Origin: a virus
IMG/VR virus record: IMGVR_UViG_3300035698_010330
Coordinates: 1-26,309 of that record
Length of the DNA: 26,309 nucleotides
Reading direction: 5' to 3' (one strand)
Shown: positions 1 through 20,347 of the stretch, piece after piece
Layout of the letters: every line of letters starts with the position of its first letter
How positions within the stretch are numbered: position 1 is the stretch's first letter
Program-made: the position numbers and the translations under genes
Notes under the pieces: generated by a model
The model's database searches: none
What the model saw: the letters and a program-made list of their open reading frames with translations, nothing else
Told to the model about the DNA's origin: nothing

Positions 1-2
1 CT

Positions 3-155
3 GGCGGAGATTTCAGCATAGGAGAAAATCTTAAAGCAGCGGGTATTCCGGGGACATTTCCGGGGGGGTTAAGTACTGGATATATGGATATAGGCGCAGT
101 CCAGCGTGAAGAATCAGGCGGGGGCGGGCCATGTGTAGGATTAATAGGAGGATAA
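3..155 (+). CDS. C-terminal end of a tail-spike/beta-helix-like protein (partial)
   Basis: The frame is open from the left edge and stops with TAA at 153-155, giving the last 50 residues of a longer protein. It contains GYMDIGAVQREE, followed by a glycine-rich tail ending in a Cys. The (P/M)DIGAVQR motif is commonly seen at the C-terminus of right-handed parallel beta-helix proteins, including phage tail spikes and pectate-lyase-like proteins; that is family knowledge, not a search result. Its stop overlaps the next start (TAATG), so it belongs to the same transcript as the virion genes that follow. A receptor-binding or cell-surface-degrading role is inferred. It could also be another secreted beta-helix protein, because only the end is visible. 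Confidence 0.5.
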   Translation, partial: GGDFSIGENLKAAGIPGTFPGGLSTGYMDIGAVQREESGGGGPCVGLIGG

Positions 156-430
156 TGGAAAACCCACGATGCGATGATCATCAAAGACAGATACACACGA
201 TGGAGATTAAGTTAACAAAGATAGAGACAACAGTAGATCATATTAAGGACAGGATAGATAACGGTTTGAGTGGGACAGTAACAAAGATATGGGATAGGTT
301 AAATGATTTCCGTCCAGCGATTGAGGACAGTAAGTTCTGGGTAGGAAAGATTAAATGGGCTGTGTTCTGGATTGCTATAGTAGCTGTGGGCGGTGGTCTT
401 GCCAGAGTGTTCATGAATATTATTGGATAA
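155..430 (+). CDS. XhlA-like coiled-coil/membrane protein (possible lysis accessory)
   Basis: This 91-residue protein has an N-terminal amphipathic, heptad-like stretch (ITMEIKLTKIETTVDHIKDR-type pattern, about residues 12-45) and one C-terminal membrane segment (about residues 68-88, WAVFWIAIVAVGGGLARVF). Size and layout match the haemolysin XhlA/holin-associated family of phages, which act at the inner membrane in lysis. I chose ATG 155 because AGGAGG at 146-151 lies just upstream and the previous stop overlaps it as TAATG. An in-frame ATG at 131 has no good ribosome site and would read through the preceding gene's end. Its place upstream of virion genes rather than beside the holin is unusual. 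A membrane-anchored virion protein is the alternative. Confidence 0.5.
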   Translation: MENPRCDDHQRQIHTMEIKLTKIETTVDHIKDRIDNGLSGTVTKIWDRLNDFRPAIEDSKFWVGKIKWAVFWIAIVAVGGGLARVFMNIIG

Positions 431-441
431 CAGGAGGAATC

Positions 442-930
442 ATGGGATTTAAGGGCGGGTTAAAAACAAAGATTACGGAAAAGGTTATTGAAAGAGTTGT
501 TGAGGTTCCTAAATTTAAAACTGTAGAAATAGATAGACCTGTTTATGTTGACAAGATATTTGAGAAACCTGTTATTAAAGTGAAGGAATATATTGTTGAT
601 ACCCCTGTCTTTAAGAACAAGAACATTGATACGTATACACTCAAGACTAAAGAAGTAAAGGTTGATGTGCCTGTCTACAAAGATATCTCTGTTGATGTTC
701 CTGTCTATAAGACTAAGGAAGTTATCGTTCCAGTCTTCAAGGAGAATGAAGTGCTGGTTGATAAGGTAACAATCGTTCCTAAAGAAGTGATCAAGGAAAT
801 ACAAAAAGAAATCATAATGCCTAGAATTATTTTTAAGGATGTCATCGTTGATAGGCCAGTTTTTAAAGATCGTATAGTTGAGGTTATTAAACCTAATTAT
901 GTTTGTCCTAAATGTGGGAGCAGAGCGTGA
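442..930 (+). CDS. Decapeptide-repeat (VDVPVYK-type) protein with C-terminal CPKC
   Basis: This 162-residue protein is built almost entirely of degenerate units of about 10 residues with the pattern (I/V)-(V/D)-x-P-V-(Y/F)-K. Copies include VDTPVFKN, VDVPVYKD, VDVPVYKT, VIVPVFKE and VDRPVFKD. Three consecutive copies begin at 661, 691 and 721, exactly 30 nt apart. The pattern recalls alveolin-like charged-repeat proteins, which form filaments or fibres; that is a resemblance only. The C-terminus has a lone CPKCGSRA zinc-knuckle-like pair. I chose ATG 442 (GGAGG at 433-437) over the longer frame from 355, which overlaps the upstream gene. It lies among virion genes, so a fibre or structural role is plausible. 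No function is assigned. Confidence 0.75.
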   Translation: MGFKGGLKTKITEKVIERVVEVPKFKTVEIDRPVYVDKIFEKPVIKVKEYIVDTPVFKNKNIDTYTLKTKEVKVDVPVYKDISVDVPVYKTKEVIVPVFKENEVLVDKVTIVPKEVIKEIQKEIIMPRIIFKDVIVDRPVFKDRIVEVIKPNYVCPKCGSRA

Positions 931-6962: not shown

Positions 6963-7199
6963 ATGGGTATAGAACAGGTAGATAGACTAACAGACATGAG
7001 TGATGAGAGCTTGCCAATGTTGCATAAGATAATGGATGGCATCCATGCAGAAGCGGTGGGGATAATCTATTCTTCTGTGGTGCCCGTAGCGGCTACGACA
7101 CCTACTGGCAAGATGGTGATACATGATGATGGCGCAGGGACTAAGCGTATTTATTTCAAAACTGGAAAAGATAACCTGGGATACATAAGTTTAACATGA
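6963..7199 (+). CDS. Small virion-associated protein (hypothetical)
   Basis: This 78-residue protein begins after AAGGAGCTGAG. A short helical N-terminus (VDRLTDMSDESLPMLHKIMD) is followed by strands, TPTGKMVIHDDGAGTKRIYF and LGYISL. The last segment, a K-(M/V)-V-I-H-D-D-G-A-G-x-R-I-Y-F strand pair, is a pattern seen in small phage tail proteins. It sits between the fibre-like gene and the cupin gene and its stop overlaps the next start as ATGA. No function is recognised. Confidence 0.55.
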   Translation: MGIEQVDRLTDMSDESLPMLHKIMDGIHAEAVGIIYSSVVPVAATTPTGKMVIHDDGAGTKRIYFKTGKDNLGYISLT

Positions 7200-7666
7200 T
7201 GGAAGTAACGGAAAAAATAGATGCTGCGATAATGCGGGACAAGATCATGGAGTTTGAGAAGGGGTTGGCTCAGACTCCGGGGGCTAAGTTTGGTGACGAT
7301 TGTGCACCGCTTAAGCACACGTTTGTTGATGGTGCGTACATCAGGGAGATCACCATGCCTAAGGGCTGGGTGTTTACTTCTAAGATCCATAAGATTGAAC
7401 ATCCGTACTTTGTTATGAAGGGTGATTGCTCAGTGTTGACAGATGAGGGTGTTGTGCGGATTAAGGCTCCTCATTGGGGTGTGACACAGCCGGGGACAAA
7501 ACGGATATTATATATGCATGAAGAAACGGTGTGGGCTACGGTTCATGTGACGGACAGTAAAGATTTGAAGGAAATAGAAAACCAGATTATAGCACCTGAT
7601 TTTGAGAGTGTTATAACGGATGGAGATAAAGAAGAAGGAGGAACACTATGTCATGGGGATCAATAG
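7196..7666 (+). CDS. Cupin-fold phage protein
   Basis: This 156-residue protein has a cupin-like core from about residue 45 to 125: FVDGAYIREITMPKGWVFTS, then HKIEHPYFVMKGDCSVLTDEG and HWGVTQPGTKRILYMHEET. The H-x-x-E-H-P-Y-x-V-(M/L)-x-G pattern with a following P-G-T-K-R is typical of small beta-barrel cupins encoded among phage structural genes. Such proteins may be virion decorations or bind metal or ligand. The visible His and Glu residues (HKIEH) are candidate metal ligands, though I cannot confirm a complete site. The start is ATGATG overlapping the upstream stop, with no clear Shine-Dalgarno, so coupled re-initiation is likely. It overlaps the next gene by 19 nt. Confidence 0.65.
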   Translation: MMEVTEKIDAAIMRDKIMEFEKGLAQTPGAKFGDDCAPLKHTFVDGAYIREITMPKGWVFTSKIHKIEHPYFVMKGDCSVLTDEGVVRIKAPHWGVTQPGTKRILYMHEETVWATVHVTDSKDLKEIENQIIAPDFESVITDGDKEEGGTLCHGDQ

Positions 7667-8567: not shown

Positions 8568-9542
8568 ATGGCAACATTACCAGCAACAGTACAACAATTA
8601 CCAGGTAACGAGATTCAGTATGATACTCGTCCTTCTCCTTTCGAGACGTTTGCTACAGTTTTAGCTTCGGGTATGCAGGGCAAGGCTGACAGGGCAGAGT
8701 CTGAGAAAAAGAGAACTAGCCAAGAAAAGATTGCGGCTTATCCTAACTTGATAAATAAGGATTATCTACAACCAACGACAGGAGATGGTGATACCTCCTA
8801 TGCCGGGATGGATTTTAATTATAAGGATCCTTCTACGGCAGCAGCTACAACAGGAACAAAAGAATATTATGAAGTAGAAAAACTTAAGGCGCAGATAGAA
8901 GCAATAGAAGGTAAGGACCGTATTTCTGATACGACAGTATTTACTCAAGCTGTGAAATTCGCTGGAGATGTTGAGAAGGATTTACAGTTTATGCATCTTC
9001 AAAAGATGGATAAGGATAATGGAAGTAAAGGTACCCCTACTAATTTAGCCGCGAAATATAAAGCGCAGAAAGTAATGCAAGCTTATGATGAACTTATGAA
9101 ATTGAGAAATGCAATGAACCCTTCTATATTAACAGATCCAGAACAGGATACTTTAAGAAGGACTGATTATGATAAGTTAAACGTTATGATGGCTCAGATA
9201 AAAAAAGATCATCCGAACCCAGAGGCAGCCGCTGCTGTTGTGCGGGCTGAACTTGCTGGGCGTAAGGGTATTACTGAATCTCTTATCCAAACAATACTAC
9301 AAAAGTATGGGCTACCGACTGGGGCTCCGGCTGAAGAAGCTAAGATTCCTGATTCAAGTGGAGCGAAGAAGGTAGGAAGGGCCGCAAAAGGTATGCAAAA
9401 TACTTTTCAGAGATCAGGGCCAATGGGATTATTTCAGGCGCTTAACCCAGAAACAATGAAGTCACAGTGGGAGAACCTGATGGGTTCTTCTCTTGTAGAA
9501 TTTGGTAAAGAATTTACTAACTCATTTAAGGATACTAAATAA
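8568..9542 (+). CDS. Putative internal virion protein (hypothetical)
   Basis: This 324-residue protein starts at ATG 8568 after AAGGAGG at 8555-8561. A longer frame from 8523 would overlap the previous gene and lacks this site. The N-terminus (LPATVQQLPGNEIQYDTR) is followed by helical, charged sequence rich in K, E, Q and A, with a low-complexity TAAATTGT segment near residue 100. It lies between the glycine-rich protein and the 1711-residue protein and its stop overlaps the next ATG (TAATG). By position it fits the middle member of a three-protein ejection set. I recognise no domain. Confidence 0.5.
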   Translation: MATLPATVQQLPGNEIQYDTRPSPFETFATVLASGMQGKADRAESEKKRTSQEKIAAYPNLINKDYLQPTTGDGDTSYAGMDFNYKDPSTAAATTGTKEYYEVEKLKAQIEAIEGKDRISDTTVFTQAVKFAGDVEKDLQFMHLQKMDKDNGSKGTPTNLAAKYKAQKVMQAYDELMKLRNAMNPSILTDPEQDTLRRTDYDKLNVMMAQIKKDHPNPEAAAAVVRAELAGRKGITESLIQTILQKYGLPTGAPAEEAKIPDSSGAKKVGRAAKGMQNTFQRSGPMGLFQALNPETMKSQWENLMGSSLVEFGKEFTNSFKDTK

Positions 9543-12500
9543 TGGCTGAAAAAATTAAAGAGCCGCCTGTTGAAAGTTATGGCTTAGCTGATGTCCTGTC
9601 AGATGTTTCTAACCCGAAACCAATTCCAGATACTCCAGCTCAAAGTGGGTATGGCTTAGCTGATGCGATACGTACTACAGAGTATATAAGACCTGTGTCT
9701 CAGGGAGATTCTCCGGAGGAACTGCAACAGTCGTCTGGTGGGTATGGCTTAGCTGATGCTATTGTTGATGTGCCTACGCAATTTGGGGACAGGGCTGGCA
9801 TCTCACAGCAACCTAACGAAATCAATCCTGAAGAAGTGATTACCAACAAAGCTTCGTATTGGTTACGGCGTGGGGTGATGGGGCCGACAGAACGAAGTGT
9901 GTTTGGGTTGGCGCAGTTGCCGTTTGAAGTTGCTAAGTATTTCACAAAGGATGACGCACGATTAAATGAGATCACTAAGATGTTGGATCCAACGAACCCA
10001 GAATCTAACATTGGGTTCTGGTCTAAGCCGGAGATGGCAACGCGGGCATACCGGGAAGTGGCTGCGTTTGATAGGAGCTATGGTGCAGGGATCGGGAATA
10101 ATATATTAGAAAGTACCGTTGACTTCGGTGCGTTTTTATTACAGCTCGCTCTGGTTAAGAAGATACCATTAAAGGGTGGAAGTGACCTGGGCAAGTGGTC
10201 AAAGCAAACTAAGGCAGCCGCGACTATAGCCCAGAAATTAAAAGCAGGACAGCAAGTAACCTCATCAGCGAGAAATGCTGCTTGGGCTGCGCAGTCTTTA
10301 CGACATGCTGCTTTGTTGGGAGCTCATGGTGCGTTGACTACGTTGGGAACAGGTAGGGAGAGAGGTAAACATGCTGTCATGCGAGCGATGTATGCGGCGA
10401 CACCAGTCTTGAGTGCGTATACCGGAGTAGCTAATTTGCCTGGAGCTGTTGGGAAAATTGCGCCAAGGGTAGTTGACTTTATTATTAACACAGGCATTAC
10501 AACGGCAACGGCTTATAAAGAAATCTATGAAGCCAACGATAAAAAGATTGATGCTAACTTCTGGGCGCAAGCTACGCCTCAGATAGTGATGGATGCGTTG
10601 ATGTCTTTGTCAACTGCTGGGTTTCCTGAACATAATTTGGATCGTCATTTTGGACAGTTGTATAAAGATCATCAAAAGTTGGGGAATCCTACTGTTAAAG
10701 GGAAGACCTCCGAGGAATGGGTAGCGGCACAGAAGAAGATCCATCATACTTATACTGATAAAATAACCATGACGAAGACCACACCTTCAAAGACACAACG
10801 CTTACAGGAAGGTGAGGGTAGCTCTAAGAATATTAAGGGAGAGACTAAACGGTATCCTCTGGAGATAGCAACTGACACAGAGATTGCTGAAGGTAGCATC
10901 AAGTTGGAGAACATGAAGCTATCGTTGGGTGAGAAGGAGGGGGATGAAAGAGAAATATTGACTCCTGCTAAGATCAAGAAATTTCCACGGGAGATACAGG
11001 ATAGGATTTATAAGCTGGCGGCGAACAACGATCCAGAGGGGATATTAAATTTTTTAAAAGAACAGGATAATAAAATATATTGGTTACGCGGTGCCCCTGA
11101 TAGTAAGGATGCTGTTGTATGGTATGGCCCGAAGAAGGAAGCCATGTCTATAACAGAAGCTGTGCGTCATATGGAGAATGATAAGGTTGATATCTTAGAC
11201 ATGGAAGTCCATAAGAGTGTGGTTACGAAAGCGGACTTGGAACAGTATAATAAGTTTACTGTTCTTGATATAGAGAAAGCGTTGTTTCGTGAAGTAGGTA
11301 GTCAGATCAAGACTTCTAAGTTTTTGGAAAGCCGGATAAAAGATTATGTTATGGAAGTGCTGGCTGAAAAGGCGCTTGATGTTACTAAGGAAACTATACT
11401 CAGAGACAGGACAAACCTTTGGAAGGATATCGTTGAGGTGCGTGAGCGGGCAGATAAGGTCAGGCGCTTTCAGGACTTGTTGTATCGTGAGACGGAGAGG
11501 CAGGATGAGGCACGCCTTGAAGGCACGCTTGATAAACATCCACTTGCTCCGAAGAAAACTTATTCTACTTTTGGCTCGCTTGAAAAGAAAGCTAAGGAGT
11601 TTCTTCTGAAACGTGGGTATACTCTCTTTCGGATAGAGGATGAGAGTGGGGTGCACGAAAAGAAGCTGAGCGATATGAGTATGTCTGACTTGCGTTGGGT
11701 TTATGAGAAGCTGCTAAGCACTGGGGAGCAGATGAAGTTTTATGAGTTGGCAAACAAGGAGTCTGCCACTGAAGTAGTCGGTGGTGATTGGGCAAAGTCT
11801 ATAGCACCTAAACCAGCTAAGCTGAGTAAGCCAGAGGCAGATGCTCGGAAGAAAGCGGAGGAGAAGAGAGCTTTGGCAGGGAAGCTTGATAAGCTTCAGA
11901 AGGGAGAGGATTATGTTTCTCCAGGTGCGATGAATGAAAAGGGCAAAGAGTACGGTTCTTTCTTAAGCTTGCTGCTTAAGGGCTCAAAGTTTTTTGGTTA
12001 TAACGAAGACCAGTTTGCAGCCTTTGTCAATAAGCAGGGGTTGGATGGCATTTTTAAAATGCGTGCGCCGGAATTACAAACCAGTTCTGAGATAAAAGAA
12101 AAAACGGTTAACGCTATGATGGCGTTAAAGAGAGTACGTGCACATAACAGGAAGCTGGGTATATCAGTTCAAGATACGCTTGCTCATGCTGTGCAAGAAC
12201 AGGTGCTTAAAGATTTCCCGAAACTTCCGGATGAAGGATCTATCCGCACACCGGAACGATTGGAACGGTTCAAAGTTTATTCTGCTATCATGACGCGGGC
12301 AATAGAGGAGGTTGGGCATAATGACGGGGAGCCTATCACTAAATACTTTTATACTGATAGAGGTGCAGGCGGGGCATGGACGACTCCAAAACAACTGGAT
12401 ATAGTAACCAAAGATTATATTAATTTAAGGACAGCATTAAATCTTGATTCATTATCTAAAGAGGAGTTAGCAGCATTAGTAGCTAAGAAGCCTGAAGGTT

Positions 12501-14677
12501 TGTTTTTTAATCTGTTACCCCCACATGCTAAGAACACTGTACTATGGGCTAAAGCAGACGTTGAGAAACAGTTGCTTAAGTCAATGTTAGAAGCTGGAGT
12601 GTTTGATAACTCTAACTTGTATGAGAATGTAAAGCGTGGGTTTGGTCACAGGGTTTGGGACAAGGAAGAATTCCAACGTGGGGCTGGGGTAAAATCAGAT
12701 TTAACAGATGAGAAATTTCAAGCACAGAAATATGATACTTATTCTGAGTTCCTAGTGGAAGCTGGGAAGACAGACACACGTGGAGCCCGGCTAATTGTTT
12801 CAGAAGATTTCACTTTAAATGTATCTGACTACGTTGCAGATAGTTTGGACAAGGTACAGAATCAACGGACATTAAATATCTTGAAGGAGATTGGAAACCC
12901 TGAACGTCCCGGCAAGTTTCTGGTTGAGTACGCTAAGAACTGGGGGAAGAATCAGGAGAAGGCACAAGGGTTATTGACGGAAGCTGGTTATACAAAGATG
13001 CCAGCAGCGAGTGGACTGGCTAGGAAAACAAAGGGTGGGTTTTCCGTACCGTGGGTTCATAAAAGTATAGAGCAGATCATTTCCCAGATAACAGAAGTTA
13101 GAACTGCTGAAGGGTATGCTAAGGTTTGGTTGAAACTTAATGGGTTAATTAAACGACATGTTATGTTTTCCCCGAATCTATTTGCGTTGCAGATAGCGTC
13201 TACTCCGATGGTTTGGATTGGCCCGGTGAAGGCGTTGAAGCATGGGATAAAACCTATTGCTGCTTTTGATATATTCAGGAAGGGGCCGCAACAGGCGAAG
13301 GCAAGGTTCCGTGGAGATCTGGATGCTTCAGGTGCGTTGAGTCATCTCAAGGGACAGGAATATAACATGGAGGTTTTAAAGCTGGGATTGGAACGTGGGC
13401 TTAGAGGCTTTGATGTAGCGTTTGAGATGGACAGGATCTTTGATAAAACCCAGACCAATACTAAGCATCCTGCGGCTATGAGTAAACTAGAAACGATGTA
13501 CGAATTGATAGGGGATAAGGGTGGCATAAATTCTTATACCTTCAATACATATGTGGGTAAGATGATGTATGAATACTTCGGGCATATGCACAAGAGGTTC
13601 ATGAAGTTGGGTCACAGCAAGGAGAAGGCTGCTGATCTTGCGACTAAGATTTGTAATGACACAACAGGGATGTTGGATTCAAATATCTATGGTGCTGAGG
13701 GCAAGTTCTTACAGGGGTTATTATTCGCCAGGGATTTTACTATGTCGTTTCTCCGGATGGGTACGGGTGCGTTGGGTTCCAAGCTGGGAGGAAAGCAGGA
13801 TTATGCAACTACCGGAACGCGAAAGTATCTTAACTCTTTGTTGCATGGCGAGGTTTCGCGCGCCGATTTTGATGCACTGGTTCCTATATATAGGTTGCAT
13901 TTGGCTAAAGTTTTAATGATGAAGATTTTTTTTATTAATGCAATCCAGTATGGGTTAAGTTTTAGAAATGAGGATCCAGAGAAACGCGGGAAGTTTGCGT
14001 TTCAGAATGAACCGGGGAGTAGATTGAACATTGAGATGCCATGGAACGATCCGGAAGGGAAGTCTATTTATATGGCACCGTTGCTCTTTCGTGAAGCAGA
14101 TCAGATGTGGGATATCTTCAGTTCCCTGCCGGGTTTGAAGGAAACGTTGGGTGGGCGTGGTATTGCAAGGTGGGCAAAGGGTAAGGCGAACTATGGACTC
14201 AGTACAACTATTGCTCTGGCAGCCAACGCTAATTATGCGGGGCGGCCTATTACCAGTAATTCTCAGTATGTTTCTATTCAGAACAGGGTCAGAGATTATG
14301 CGGCGTTTGGATTATGGGCAGCACAGCCAACGTTTGCTCGGACAGATATTAAGAAGCCCGCAGGTTTGTTTGCCAGTCAGGTTCTGGGGATGCCGCTTAA
14401 ACGTGGTTCCTTTTATGATGAACCGGGATACCCGGTAAGCTATCAACAGGAGATGCGGAAGTATGTTGAGCAAGCAAACTATAAGCGCCTTAAGACACAG
14501 AAGGTTTTGTATGCGTCCAATATGGAAGAGGCATGGGATATGTATTTTGACCGGGAGATAGGGGATTCAGCTATGATGGATAAAATGATGCGTGAAGAAT
14601 TTGGTATGGGTGCAAGCTTATACGAAAGGAAACACAGGACGGATATACAGGAAGGTCTTTTCGGCTTAGGAGGGTAG
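9542..14677 (+). CDS. Giant (1711 aa) internal virion / DNA-ejection-like protein
   Basis: This is the largest gene in the window. The first 75 residues carry three YGLAD motifs (residues 13-17, 37-41, 68-72) in a flexible Pro/Ser-rich segment. Around residues 110-330 are Ala/Gly-rich, partly hydrophobic helices (FGAFLLQLALVKKIP, HAALLGAHGALTTLG, AYTGVANLPGAVG) that could contact membrane. The centre is highly charged and helical. The last 500 residues (HVMFSPNLFALQIASTPM, KFLQGLLFARDFTMSFLRMG, NPRW-type interior) resemble the C-terminal parts of giant phage polyvalent/ejection proteins (LPD38-like), by memory only. No lysozyme or transglycosylase motif is evident. Size and position match T7 gp16-type channel proteins, which enter the host envelope with DNA. 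TAATG links it to the gene before. Confidence 0.5.
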   Translation: MAEKIKEPPVESYGLADVLSDVSNPKPIPDTPAQSGYGLADAIRTTEYIRPVSQGDSPEELQQSSGGYGLADAIVDVPTQFGDRAGISQQPNEINPEEVITNKASYWLRRGVMGPTERSVFGLAQLPFEVAKYFTKDDARLNEITKMLDPTNPESNIGFWSKPEMATRAYREVAAFDRSYGAGIGNNILESTVDFGAFLLQLALVKKIPLKGGSDLGKWSKQTKAAATIAQKLKAGQQVTSSARNAAWAAQSLRHAALLGAHGALTTLGTGRERGKHAVMRAMYAATPVLSAYTGVANLPGAVGKIAPRVVDFIINTGITTATAYKEIYEANDKKIDANFWAQATPQIVMDALMSLSTAGFPEHNLDRHFGQLYKDHQKLGNPTVKGKTSEEWVAAQKKIHHTYTDKITMTKTTPSKTQRLQEGEGSSKNIKGETKRYPLEIATDTEIAEGSIKLENMKLSLGEKEGDEREILTPAKIKKFPREIQDRIYKLAANNDPEGILNFLKEQDNKIYWLRGAPDSKDAVVWYGPKKEAMSITEAVRHMENDKVDILDMEVHKSVVTKADLEQYNKFTVLDIEKALFREVGSQIKTSKFLESRIKDYVMEVLAEKALDVTKETILRDRTNLWKDIVEVRERADKVRRFQDLLYRETERQDEARLEGTLDKHPLAPKKTYSTFGSLEKKAKEFLLKRGYTLFRIEDESGVHEKKLSDMSMSDLRWVYEKLLSTGEQMKFYELANKESATEVVGGDWAKSIAPKPAKLSKPEADARKKAEEKRALAGKLDKLQKGEDYVSPGAMNEKGKEYGSFLSLLLKGSKFFGYNEDQFAAFVNKQGLDGIFKMRAPELQTSSEIKEKTVNAMMALKRVRAHNRKLGISVQDTLAHAVQEQVLKDFPKLPDEGSIRTPERLERFKVYSAIMTRAIEEVGHNDGEPITKYFYTDRGAGGAWTTPKQLDIVTKDYINLRTALNLDSLSKEELAALVAKKPEGLFFNLLPPHAKNTVLWAKADVEKQLLKSMLEAGVFDNSNLYENVKRGFGHRVWDKEEFQRGAGVKSDLTDEKFQAQKYDTYSEFLVEAGKTDTRGARLIVSEDFTLNVSDYVADSLDKVQNQRTLNILKEIGNPERPGKFLVEYAKNWGKNQEKAQGLLTEAGYTKMPAASGLARKTKGGFSVPWVHKSIEQIISQITEVRTAEGYAKVWLKLNGLIKRHVMFSPNLFALQIASTPMVWIGPVKALKHGIKPIAAFDIFRKGPQQAKARFRGDLDASGALSHLKGQEYNMEVLKLGLERGLRGFDVAFEMDRIFDKTQTNTKHPAAMSKLETMYELIGDKGGINSYTFNTYVGKMMYEYFGHMHKRFMKLGHSKEKAADLATKICNDTTGMLDSNIYGAEGKFLQGLLFARDFTMSFLRMGTGALGSKLGGKQDYATTGTRKYLNSLLHGEVSRADFDALVPIYRLHLAKVLMMKIFFINAIQYGLSFRNEDPEKRGKFAFQNEPGSRLNIEMPWNDPEGKSIYMAPLLFREADQMWDIFSSLPGLKETLGGRGIARWAKGKANYGLSTTIALAANANYAGRPITSNSQYVSIQNRVRDYAAFGLWAAQPTFARTDIKKPAGLFASQVLGMPLKRGSFYDEPGYPVSYQQEMRKYVEQANYKRLKTQKVLYASNMEEAWDMYFDREIGDSAMMDKMMREEFGMGASLYERKHRTDIQEGLFGLGG
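9578..9758 (+). repeat. Three identical 16-nt repeats encoding YGLAD
   Basis: TATGGCTTAGCTGATG occurs at 9578-9593, 9650-9665 and 9743-9758, all in frame within the N-terminus of the 1711-residue protein and each encoding YGLAD plus the start of the next codon. Spacing is 72 and 93 nt, both multiples of three. Identity at synonymous positions suggests recent duplication or conversion. Confidence 0.85.
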
Positions 14678-15400: not shown

Positions 15401-15508
15401 TTACTTAGTACGTTTATACAGCAAGTCACGTATTTCTTCTAAGATCATTTCAGTTGATTCCTTTTTGAAATAAATTAAAATCAACAATATAATGATTACA
15501 TATCCCAT
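15401..15508 (-). CDS. 35-residue single-pass membrane microprotein
   Basis: This is a short open frame on the minus strand: ATG at 15508-15506, stop TAA at 15403-15401. The protein begins MGYVIIILLILIYFKKES, a hydrophobic helix of about 12-13 residues bounded by KK, then a charged amphipathic helix (MILEEIRDLLYKRTK). The start overlaps the ParB-like gene's stop as TAATG, the same coupling seen elsewhere in this operon, and the operon's terminator follows 7 nt after the stop. These two facts support it as a real gene despite its length. A type I small membrane effector or regulator is possible. Function is unknown. Confidence 0.6.
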   Translation of the reverse strand: MGYVIIILLILIYFKKESTEMILEEIRDLLYKRTK

Positions 15509-16344
15509 TATAATACCAACTTCTTGCTATCTGAACTCAGGTTCAGTACGCTCTTCAACATCTTCTTAAGGTAAATTATCCCATTAGAACCAGAGAACTT
15601 ACTCATCTCAACGATCTCCGGTAGTTTCGTGGAGTGTTGTATCCTGCCCATGCGTTTGCCTATTTCACTCATCGGGAAATTATCTTTGTTCGTCCAGTAT
15701 ATGATGAAGGCCGTACAGAAAAAGGTCGAGGAATAAGCCCACTTAATCGACTGGGGTTCTCCGAACTGTACCAACATGTCGGTCAGGATAGTGCTGGTTA
15801 ACAGGATATCTTCTTTGCCCCATAGCTTTACATGCTCGATCAAATCCCAACCTTGTATTGTCTGATGTTTTGCCCTGGACAATGCCATGCATATGCCACC
15901 CAACGAGAACTCTCCTTTGCTGTGTGATTTACCATGGCTGATAGTGAGCTGTTCGACATCCATGATTTTTTTTGTGAACACTAGGTCTTCCCGATACAGC
16001 TTGAGCTTATCATGTGAGTCAAACTTCCGTGCGGTGTTAAAGACTTGTATTACTTCCAGTTCTTCTGGCTTGGTCAGCTCGCTGAATATCTGTAGTTTTC
16101 CTGCCACTTCACGTTCTGTCATGATGACAGAAGTGAGGCGGTGCTGTCCGTCCAACACCCAGTAGAATCCATCCTTCCTTAAACTAACTACTATAGGATC
16201 GGGGATATATGTAACTTTACTCAACGACTTCATGACAGATGAGCCTTCTGCTACGTGACGGTTCTCATCAAGGAACCTAAACTTTTCACGGATAAATTTC
16301 TTGGTTAACTTTACTGGTATGATTTTATCTTTGTGCTGTTTCAT
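15508..16344 (-). CDS. ParB/Srx-fold DGQHR-domain protein
   Basis: This 278-residue protein carries, near residues 40-80, PDPIVVSLRKDGFYWVLDGQ followed by HRLTSVIM. DGQHR(L) is the signature of the ParB N-terminal/DGQHR domain, a nucleotide-binding fold used in ParB CTPases, nucleases and modification-associated proteins. Further on, VIQVFNTARKFDSHDKLKLY matches the N-T-x-(R/K)-x-(F/W)-x-x-x-D block seen in phage or plasmid stand-alone ParB-like proteins. The C-terminal 150 residues are helical with no ParB HTH that I can recognise. The gene has AAAGGAG upstream and overlaps the HTH gene by 20 nt, and that HTH protein could supply the DNA-binding function. The catalytic or binding activity is inferred, not shown. 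Confidence 0.65.
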   Translation of the reverse strand: MKQHKDKIIPVKLTKKFIREKFRFLDENRHVAEGSSVMKSLSKVTYIPDPIVVSLRKDGFYWVLDGQHRLTSVIMTEREVAGKLQIFSELTKPEELEVIQVFNTARKFDSHDKLKLYREDLVFTKKIMDVEQLTISHGKSHSKGEFSLGGICMALSRAKHQTIQGWDLIEHVKLWGKEDILLTSTILTDMLVQFGEPQSIKWAYSSTFFCTAFIIYWTNKDNFPMSEIGKRMGRIQHSTKLPEIVEMSKFSGSNGIIYLKKMLKSVLNLSSDSKKLVL

Positions 16345-16828
16345 TTGCGATCTCCTTTTTTGGTCGAGTAACTATAAATAAATACACATCATCTTTTTCT
16401 CCTGCTAGTATTCCGATCTTAATTCCGGGATAGAGCCGCGTTGCTGCTTGCCTGATTGAGGTCTTACGATTCATCAGGCTCGTTGGAGGGGTACACTCAA
16501 GTTGTTCAAGCGTCATTTTGATACAGGGATTGGTGATCTTTTTTGTGGGCTTAAGGCTGAGAAGACAGTCAATGAGATCATCCCACTTTCCTCTTGACCG
16601 ATCATTTAATTCATTAGGTTTTTGTACTATGTTGAAATCAAAAATTGTTTGTTTAATCCGCCGTGGTTTGTCTGGTACCCCTAGCACAGCTTTCTTGTAG
16701 GCATAGAACGTGGAGAAATGGATCCCCAGGCCTTCACAGTATTTCTCAATTGATAGTCCTGATTCTATTTGATCCTTTACGATCTTTTCTTTCGTTTCAA
16801 ACGGTAGTGCTTTCCTGCTGTTTTCCAT
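16325..16828 (-). CDS. Helix-turn-helix DNA-binding protein (transposase/terminase-small-like HTH)
   Basis: In this 167-residue protein, residues 10-50 read FETKEKIVKDQIESGLSIEK, then YCEGLGIHFSTFYAYKKAVLG, a classic HTH of the type found in IS-element OrfA and small-terminase proteins. The central part is basic (KPRRIKQTIF), and the C-terminal region ends in a beta-rich KIGILAGEKDDVYLFIVTRPK. No transposase catalytic domain follows, so it is not an insertion sequence. It starts by TAATG overlap with the upstream gene and runs 20 nt into the ParB-like gene. Operon regulator or DNA-recognition partner of the ParB-like protein are the likely roles (inference). Confidence 0.6.
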   Translation of the reverse strand: MENSRKALPFETKEKIVKDQIESGLSIEKYCEGLGIHFSTFYAYKKAVLGVPDKPRRIKQTIFDFNIVQKPNELNDRSRGKWDDLIDCLLSLKPTKKITNPCIKMTLEQLECTPPTSLMNRKTSIRQAATRLYPGIKIGILAGEKDDVYLFIVTRPKKEIANETAQR

Positions 16829-17348: not shown

Positions 17349-17407
17349 GGGTTATATTTTGGTAGGGGGTTGCAATGGGTATTAGTTGTGTGGTATAGTG
17401 TCGCTGT

Positions 17408-17458
17408 GGGAGTAATTTTGGGAGTAATTTGGGAGTAAGGGAGTAATTTTGGGAGTAA
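17408..17458 (+). repeat. Left arm-type repeats: five GGGAGTAA copies
   Basis: Copies lie at 17408-17415, 17420-17427, 17431-17438, 17439-17446 and 17451-17458, all in the same orientation, with start-to-start spacings of 12, 11, 8 and 12 nt. Most are followed by T-rich spacers. They match the two copies right of the tRNA core, so I read them as integrase (or excisionase) arm-binding sites. Confidence 0.75.
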
Positions 17459-17566
17459 AAATAGTAGACGCACAACAACCTCAAGCAAGAGGAAGCAAGA
17501 TAAACAATTCTCTACATCTCTGTGAAACTGTGGTTAGTATCTTGAAGTGCTAAGAAAATAGGAGAA

Positions 17567-17610
17567 GCGCCCGTAGCTCAGATGGATAGAGCGACTGCTT
17601 CCTAAGCAGT
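17567..17610 (+). tRNA. 5' half of tRNA-Arg(CCU): attP core, not a complete tRNA
   Basis: The sequence folds as the first 44 nt of a tRNA: acceptor 5' strand GCGCCCG, TA, D stem GCTC/GAGC with an AGATGGATA loop, then an anticodon stem ACTGC/GCAGT enclosing TTCCTAA (anticodon CCT, Arg). No T arm and no 3' acceptor strand (CGGGCGC) follow; the next bases are TAGTCTTTTT and a hairpin. It is therefore a fragment that would be joined to the host 3' half on integration. Phages usually carry the 3' part of the target tRNA; carrying the 5' part is less common. Confidence 0.8.
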
Positions 17611-17621
17611 TAGTCTTTTTC

Positions 17622-17658
17622 CTACACCCCTTATAAGCGTGGGGTTATAGATTTTTTT
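17622..17658 (+). terminator. Hairpin plus T-run after the tRNA fragment
   Basis: CTACACCCC pairs with GGGGTTATAG (5 bp ACCCC/GGGGT, a small internal loop, then CTA/TAG) around a 10-nt loop. It is followed by seven T's at 17652-17658. It has the form of a rightward intrinsic terminator that would insulate the integrase promoter from transcription across the attachment core. Confidence 0.5.
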
Positions 17659-17668
17659 AATGAGAATT

Positions 17669-17687
17669 GGGAGTAATATGGGAGTAA
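17669..17687 (+). repeat. Right arm-type repeats: two GGGAGTAA copies
   Basis: Copies lie at 17669-17676 and 17680-17687, spaced 11 nt, in the same orientation as the five left copies. The second ends 5 bp before the -35 of the integrase promoter, so protein bound here could also repress that promoter. Confidence 0.75.
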
Positions 17688-17692
17688 ACGTC

Positions 17693-17721
17693 TTGACACT
17701 TACTGCATCTTAAAGTAATCT
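17693..17721 (+). promoter_or_regulatory. Integrase promoter
   Basis: A perfect TTGACA (17693-17698) is followed after 17 bp by TAATCT (17716-17721, a weak -10). Transcription would start about 15 nt before the integrase ribosome site. The adjacent arm repeats suggest autoregulation by integrase. Confidence 0.55.
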
Positions 17722-17744
17722 AGTGATATAAAAAGGAGGTAATG

Positions 17745-18779
17745 ATGGCTTCAGTTCCTTATCAAAAAAAAGAACGTAAAGGTTGGGCAGGTAGAGTTTT
17801 TTACACTACTATACGAACACCTGTCCCTGGCACTAATAAAAAAAGAAATAAGGCTATATGCTTGGGGACTGACAAGAAGAGTGAAGCGTTGATTAAGGTG
17901 GGCGAGTATATTAAATTAGAGAAGACTGGTGCTATTAGCTTTGCTAAGATATCTATTTCTGAATCTTTAAAAGAATATGATAAATATCAAGTTAGAAAAT
18001 GGACTAATAGGTATCGGAATAACCAGGCTAACTTATTGAAGCGCTTTTTTGAAACTACAAATTGTTTTTTTCTTGTTGAGATAAAGGCTAAACATTTTGA
18101 AAGCTATGAAGATTTAAGACGGGAAAAGGGTCTCAGTGAGTGGACTCTTTGGCATGACATAAAAGCTATTAAAACTTTTTTTAACTGGTGTACTGAGGTC
18201 AAGGAATGGTTACCTAAGAACCCTTTAGCAAAAATAAAAAAGAGGAAACCAGAAGGTGGGCGTTTGAATTATTTATCGAAGGAAGAAGTTCAAAGGTTGC
18301 TGTCTACTATGCCAGAAAATGATTTGAAATATATGTTTGCTATAGCTGTCTTTACTGGAATCCGTAGTTCAGAGTTGTTGAAGTTATGCTGGGAAGATTT
18401 TGATTTTGTAAGGAATGAACTTTATGTTCTTAGAGGGAAGAGCGGGCAGCATGATTATGTTCCTTTCAATCCTGTTTTAAAGGATATTTTATCTCCCTTC
18501 ATAAAGAAAAGTGGGAAAGTTTTTAAGTATAAAAATTTTGAACACCGTTGGCTGAAACAGAATTGGGAGAAAGCTTTAATAAAAGTAAATATAAAATTGG
18601 GAAAAGGGGATCGGTGGCATATACTTAGACATACTTATGCCTCGCATCTGGCAATGGAAGGTACTCCTATTGCTGTTATATCAAAATTGTTGGGACATAA
18701 AAACATAGAAACTACAATGATTTATTCACACCTGTCTGATAAGGTTGTTGAGGCGGCGGGCAGATCAGTATCATACTAA
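17745..18779 (+). CDS. int: Tyrosine-family phage integrase
   Basis: This protein of about 344 residues has the tyrosine recombinase layout. A basic N-terminal arm-binding part (KERKGWAGRVFYTTIR) is followed by a core-binding SAM-like domain (about 60-165) and a catalytic domain with R207 (FTGIRSSELLKLCWEDFD), K232 (LRGKSG), H292-x-x-R295 (WHILRHTYASHLA), H318 (LLGHKNIETT) and nucleophile Y327 (MIYSHLS). It catalyses recombination between attP and the host tRNA-Arg gene. ATG 17745 is preferred over 17742 because AAGGAGGT (17733-17740) is too close to the latter. The gene lies beside the putative attP, as expected, with its own promoter. It is complete and all catalytic residues are present. 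Confidence 0.95.
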   Translation: MASVPYQKKERKGWAGRVFYTTIRTPVPGTNKKRNKAICLGTDKKSEALIKVGEYIKLEKTGAISFAKISISESLKEYDKYQVRKWTNRYRNNQANLLKRFFETTNCFFLVEIKAKHFESYEDLRREKGLSEWTLWHDIKAIKTFFNWCTEVKEWLPKNPLAKIKKRKPEGGRLNYLSKEEVQRLLSTMPENDLKYMFAIAVFTGIRSSELLKLCWEDFDFVRNELYVLRGKSGQHDYVPFNPVLKDILSPFIKKSGKVFKYKNFEHRWLKQNWEKALIKVNIKLGKGDRWHILRHTYASHLAMEGTPIAVISKLLGHKNIETTMIYSHLSDKVVEAAGRSVSY

Positions 18780-20134: not shown

Positions 20135-20149
20135 ACCGGAGGTATGTAT

Positions 20150-20347
20150 ATGGGCTCTCAGCAACTTTATTCATTGATTGAGTTAGCGAAACTGATGGGG
20201 ACAAGCAAGTCTTATGTCTACCATAACTGGAAGGACTGGGTATTAGACCGTGGACTTAAGGTCATGTTCGTTGGGGATCGCCCACGTATATCTGCTACGG
20301 AGGTAGAGAAGTTGTTTAAGAGTTTTGAGGTAAACGTTAACGGATAA
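20150..20347 (+). CDS. Excisionase/Cro-like winged-helix protein
   Basis: This 65-residue protein is the first gene of the early operon. Residues 5-30 (QLYSLIELAKLMGTSKSYVY) are the first helices of an AlpA/MerR-like excisionase HTH, followed by a wing (LKVMFVGDRPRISATEVEKL). ATG 20150 is chosen over 20144 because GGAGG at 20138-20142 is 7 nt away. The position matches both Xis and Cro-type regulators. No separate excisionase is seen elsewhere, so it may promote excision at the attP site. Which of the two roles it fills is not decided by the sequence. Confidence 0.55.
   Translation: MGSQQLYSLIELAKLMGTSKSYVYHNWKDWVLDRGLKVMFVGDRPRISATEVEKLFKSFEVNVNG

Follow-up and report, generated by a model that had tools for sequence, protein, structure and literature searches.

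A probable phage attP site carrying the 5′ half of a tRNA-Arg(CCU) gene between putative integrase arm repeats

Nearly all elements that integrate into tRNA genes supply the 3′ half of the gene, which leaves the host promoter and the 5′ half in place. Among the 3,919 Islander islands, 3,760 carry a 3′ tDNA fragment and 159 a 5′ fragment, with 2,083 located at the anticodon subsite (PMC4383910), and mycobacteriophage attP cores typically contain the tRNA 3′ half (PMC10865867). An attP with the 5′ half is a different matter: the phage must also supply the signals driving the host tRNA, and the host tRNA promoter ends up facing int. According to a review, expression of a restored tRNA from an element promoter is rarely met in bacteria; it is described for the archaeal pTN3-like integrases of Thermococcales, where the att site is a tRNA 5′ half and the restored tRNA is expressed from element DNA (PMC8371274). 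A further solution is used by phages with tRNA-dependent lysogeny, in which integration splits the tRNA gene and phage sequence must provide the tRNA function (PMC10865867).

Here we analysed positions 17408-17687 of IMGVR_UViG_3300035698_010330, an IMG/VR virus record classed as linear; the window is its whole 26,309-bp stretch. We conclude that this region is very probably the attP of a temperate phage with an integrase directed at the anticodon loop of a host tRNA-Arg(CCU), and we regard it as a good attP of an uncommon, already described type (PMC4383910, PMC8371274). Like the Islander 5′-fragment class at the anticodon subsite (A), it would involve a tyrosine-integrase split at the anticodon loop, with the 5′ part on the element and the host 5′ fragment displaced; whereas the Islander entries are integrated islands with both ends, the present site is seen as attP alone (PMC4383910). 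It shares the tRNA 5′ half with the pTN3-like systems, but those archaeal integrases are suicidal, their own gene being split by integration, while int in the window lies outside the core and would stay intact (PMC8371274). The preliminary description had stated that most tRNA-integrating phages carry the 3′ part; among Islander islands, too, the 3′ fragment predominates.

The 5′ half of the tRNA-Arg(CCU) gene, from the acceptor 5′ strand to the end of the anticodon stem, lies at 17567-17610 on the plus strand and was recognized by sequence inspection, blastn, Rfam and alignment. It comprises the acceptor 5′ strand GCGCCCG, U8, a D arm (GCTC..GAGC), G26 and the anticodon arm ACTGC-TTCCTAA-GCAGT, with CCT at 17601-17603. 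The residues fixed in tRNAs that we read from the sequence (T8, A14, G18, G19, A21, T33 and A37) are all kept, as are the Arg identity bases A20 and C35. Over 40-44 nt the fragment matches five tRNA-Arg(CCU) genes of other records at 86-93%, with BLAST E values against the window of 4e-9 to 5e-10, and its best blastn matches include phage tRNA-Arg genes. The Rfam tRNA score of 21.4 bits falls below the gathering score of 29 bits, as expected because only half a tRNA is present. The identity of the fragment as first proposed thus stands, but its end needs correction. It had been said to run exactly to the end of the anticodon stem, which is about 5 nt short: in alignment with the tRNA-Arg(CCU) of L010 and L033, the similarity continues through the variable-loop bases TAGTC (17611-17615, plus strand), covering G46-T47-C48, and ends where the T stem should begin, giving a fragment of about 49 nt. 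T-arm and acceptor 3′ sequences are absent after 17615, ARAGORN detected no complete tRNA gene in the 26-kb window, and the fragment is single-copy in the record.

On either side of this fragment stand direct repeats of GGGAGTAA. Seven exact copies, all on the plus strand, fall within 17408-17687 and none elsewhere in the window, against a chance expectation of 0.92; seven were reached in 0 of 100 shuffles. Five of them, putative left (P) arm-type integrase sites, occupy 17408-17458 (starts 17408, 17420, 17431, 17439 and 17451), and two, putative right (P′) arm sites, occupy 17669-17687 (starts 17669 and 17680), just as had been counted before. Measured from the core centre, taken as the centre of the anticodon loop, the left repeats lie at -194 to -144 and the right ones at +67 to +85. 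Such distances resemble those of the arms of phage lambda attP. The earlier suggestion that the repeats are integrase arm sites draws its support from motif and position, namely the arm-core-arm spacing and the recurrence of the motif next to tRNA 3′ ends and to integrases of other elements, rather than from close homology, and judged from sequence we consider them likely arm sites. A literature search found no description of GGGAGTA as an arm motif.

An intact tyrosine integrase gene of 345 aa (17742-18779, plus strand; PF00589 E 2.4e-27, phrog_1 E 2.7e-56) begins 55 bp downstream of the site on the same strand. In alignment the protein keeps the catalytic R208, H293, R296 and H319 together with a Tyr in the expected C-terminal motif. 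At 20-26% identity, none of the integrases with which it was aligned is a close relative, and a structure predicted from the single sequence (pLDDT 34) was too poor to confirm an arm-binding domain. The probable core, at 17594-17610, consists of the 7-nt anticodon loop TTCCTAA, the likely crossover, between the 5-bp inverted arms ACTGC and GCAGT. Of the preliminary claim that this loop is the crossover core, the loop and its inverted arms are plain to see; the crossover itself was seen only in L023/L025, described below, and is extrapolated to the window. The site therefore shows what is found at the attP of a tyrosine integrase: an adjacent integrase with its catalytic residues, inverted half-sites round a 6-8 nt overlap, and direct repeats on both sides. 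As in 5′-type sites, the tRNA 5′ part (17567-17615) is on the phage and ends near the crossover.

The gene order around the site is the usual one for an attP in a temperate phage. Rightward late genes occupy the window left of 15.4 kb, with matches to a structural protein (phrog_399, E 3e-16), a short tail fibre (phrog_12032, E 3.5e-34) and a holin (E 6e-4), which mark the left flank as phage. To the right lie genes for the integrase, a repressor, a candidate excisionase or small HTH protein (20144-20347, plus strand; phrog_66, E 0.03 only), an exonuclease and a Sak4-like annealase. Neither a terminase nor a capsid gene could be recognized in the 26,309-bp window, so much of the phage genome is probably missing and the record is probably a fragment.

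To ask whether the repeats are integrase arms, we searched 2.9 million viral contigs of IMG/VR for paired TGGGAGTAA, with the same letters reversed as the control. The search returned 20 loci and the control 34. A tRNA arm was scored within 400 bp at 6 of the 20 loci, the corresponding counts being 1 of 34 for the control and 73 for 3,000 positions drawn at random, and inspection left genuine tRNA pieces at five (L016, L018, L021, L023 and L025), of which L023 and L025 have a common flank. The T arm first scored as tRNA at L019 was rejected, since the match falls inside the integrase gene of that element. A three-arm pattern gave 59 IMG/VR loci that were not counted as arm sites, nearly all being in-frame coding repeats or unrelated G-rich repeats.

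Among the sites with paired GGGAGTAA arms, L018 carries a tRNA-Thr 3′ half and L021, L023 and L025 carry tRNA-Pro 3′ halves, with the motif as in the window and its copies in one orientation. L023 and L025 have 127 bp at 100% in common, from GCATGGGGTG (anticodon loop) through two arms; upstream of GCATGGGGTG, L025 completes a tRNA-Pro, whereas L023 has the 3′ half only. This comparison indicates that recombination of an element with such arms takes place in the anticodon loop and leaves the tRNA-Pro restored; crossover in that loop is likewise proposed for the window. The arms of L021 lie just upstream of int, again like the window, and the motif stands within about 60 bp of the integrase-gene start in L011/L047, L019 and L021/L057, as it does here. 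In contrast to the window, all four sites carry the 3′ half, and they either have a different integrase or lack one on the contig. A 5′ half alone was seen in none of the other arm-motif sites compared.

Several of these loci have features of their own. L019 (minus strand 7039-7322) has two direct arms at left and one direct plus three inverted arms at right, with an integrase gene directly after; the core resembles a short stretch of tRNA 3′ end. In L011, three arms at the start of int and a fourth arm enclose the 20-nt GATTCCCCTCAGCTCCACCA, which by eye we read as a tRNA or tmRNA 3′ end. At L021/L057 (1776-4668), one tRNA-Pro(GGG) 3′ half is flanked by two different integrase genes, which looks like the junction of two elements in tandem. 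L016 (830-906 and 1147-1165, minus strand; 2-829, plus strand), or G010 (51437-53160), has a complete tRNA-Met(CAT) between phage-type late genes; two GGGAGTAA arms lie on the 5′ side of this tRNA, and at its 3′ end an integrase gene terminates. The 70.7-kb record has no further fragment of tRNA-Met, and the site could be a second example of the 5′ type or else an attP that contains the entire tRNA.

If the attP reading is correct, the N-terminal domain of the integrase would hold the five left and two right GGGAGTAA arms, its catalytic domains would sit on the inverted anticodon-stem arms, and strands would be exchanged within the TTCCTAA of attP and of the host tRNA-Arg(CCU). Since it is the 5′ half that the phage carries, the int-distal junction would be the one to regain an intact tRNA, made of the phage left flank, the phage tRNA 5′ half and the host tRNA 3′ half, and would then have phage DNA upstream. 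The other junction would join the host promoter and the host 5′ half to the P′ arms and int, so that the host promoter would face P′ and int; in the common 3′ class these roles are reversed. Binding, crossover, restoration of the tRNA and its expression from phage DNA are all inferred steps.

We then looked for transcription signals. The preliminary description had supposed that the phage supplies the 5′ half and hence a promoter, while finding no clear signal upstream. The 5′ half is plain from the sequence; the promoter scan agreed that no site is significant, with 9 promoter-like sites in 2 kb against 6.9 expected. The best-placed upstream match, TTGCAA-N18-TATAGT with an extended -10 (17370-17399), is not above chance in this count, and we rejected it as a phage promoter for the tRNA half. 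On the other side, a possible int promoter, TTGACA-N17-TAATCT (17693-17721, plus strand), was read from the sequence 5 bp past the last arm repeat; its -10 is weak and it is absent from the promoter-scan list. A similar position of the int promoter, near the right arms and downstream of a tRNA-associated core, is known from the IntS att site of KplE1/HK620, which, unlike the window, uses the 3′ end of argW (PMC2951348). By analogy, Int may possibly autoregulate its gene in the window.

Between the core and int, the terminator scan and hairpin folding (17593-17658, plus strand) showed that the anticodon arm followed by TTTTT is terminator-like, the sole such site against 1.4 expected, and that a weaker hairpin, CACCCC/GTGGGG (z -1.0), comes next before TTTTTTT. 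One might speculate that the two hairpins insulate int from the host tRNA promoter. The fuller idea of a promoter swap is doubtful in our view: the phage left flank would drive a host tRNA that is essential or reads a rare codon, which would make the cell dependent on the prophage, and the host tRNA promoter would be aimed at int, with both hairpins acting as terminators to keep int silent in the lysogen.

The alternatives to this attP differ in what they make of the tRNA half and of the left flank. It is unlikely that the site is an attP with a short working core, where integration in the anticodon loop leaves a tRNA half that is no longer a good tRNA and the host either tolerates the loss of tRNA-Arg(CCU) or depends on a tRNA brought by the phage. 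AGG codons are also readable by tRNA-Arg(UCU), which counts in favour. So does the host search: the exact 44-mer of the tRNA half has no match in 84,980 species genomes (GTDB), and the only hit to a 23-nt core was a tRNA-Arg(CCU) of Bombilactobacillus with a D arm unlike that of the phage half. A search of 398 genomes of the Bombilactobacillus phylum yielded no paired arms. The host is probably unsequenced or its attB differs from attP. Phages with tRNA-dependent lysogeny do exist, but they combine cores of about 10 bp with a full-length tRNA of matching isotype (PMC10865867). The window keeps 44-49 nt, a whole 5′ half to base 1 with all the tRNA-conserved bases, and has no tRNA gene in its 26 kb, although the record is only part of a genome.

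We consider it very improbable that the region is an attL, an attR or a tandem-prophage junction with host DNA or another element left of the core. Such junctions occur in IMG/VR, as L021 suggests, and the leftward gene group at 15.5-17.3 kb, with a ParB-like/GmrSD_N-like and a small HTH protein, would suit one. At an attL or attR, however, a single phage arm would face host DNA, so the two-sided arms of the window point to attP; since arms of the same motif flank both sides, both flanks are phage, with late genes at left, and the single-copy tRNA fragment has no second partner, the site is taken as attP and not a junction. That the tRNA half is a relic, a tRNA-fragment decoy or a terminator, with the repeats serving as operators for int or a repressor, seems more improbable still. 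The terminator-like score of the anticodon arm with TTTTT and the right-hand repeats adjoining the TTGACA box speak for it, yet five of the repeats are distant from int, unrelated elements have such repeats next to integrases and tRNA 3′ ends, and the spacing fits an arm-core-arm site. The attP reading, with arms left and right of a palindromic core centred on the anticodon loop, the integrase directly downstream and phage genes on both flanks, is well supported on sequence grounds. Against it count the search for a host attB, which found none, the search for a related phage or prophage, which yielded none whose attL and attR could be compared, the scan upstream of the tRNA half, which gave no clear promoter, the distance of the aligned integrases and the poor structure model.

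Comparison with the 3′-half sites of the same arm motif suggests a simple route from such an attP to the 5′ class. Combining L021 with L023/L025, the 3′-type layout would read arms, tRNA 3′ half on the opposite strand, arms and int, and that of the window arms, tRNA 5′ half on the same strand as int, arms and int; the tRNA part would be on the int-distal side in both. The window may thus represent the 3′-type layout after a reversal of the tRNA about its anticodon arm, itself close to a palindrome, which is the simplest account, although it joins different records and L021 may be a two-element junction. Such a near-palindrome would allow the reversal, since direction is fixed by the 7-nt overlap only.

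The phage as a whole appears isolated. No close IMG/VR relatives of the integrase, the exonuclease or a 1711-aa protein were found, DNA and protein searches of GenBank phages gave no close match, and no related phage or prophage was found. The 1711-aa protein (9542-14677, plus strand) had no relative in Pfam, PHROGs, GenBank phages or IMG/VR. An ORF at 355-930 (plus strand) encodes repeated V-D-x-P-V-Y/F-K motifs, a repeat protein without an assigned role. Between the lysis genes and attP, a leftward pair (15508-16828, minus strand) encodes the ParB-like/GmrSD_N-like protein (phrog_1033, E 6.5e-7) and an HTH_Tnp_1-like protein, possibly cargo or defence genes.
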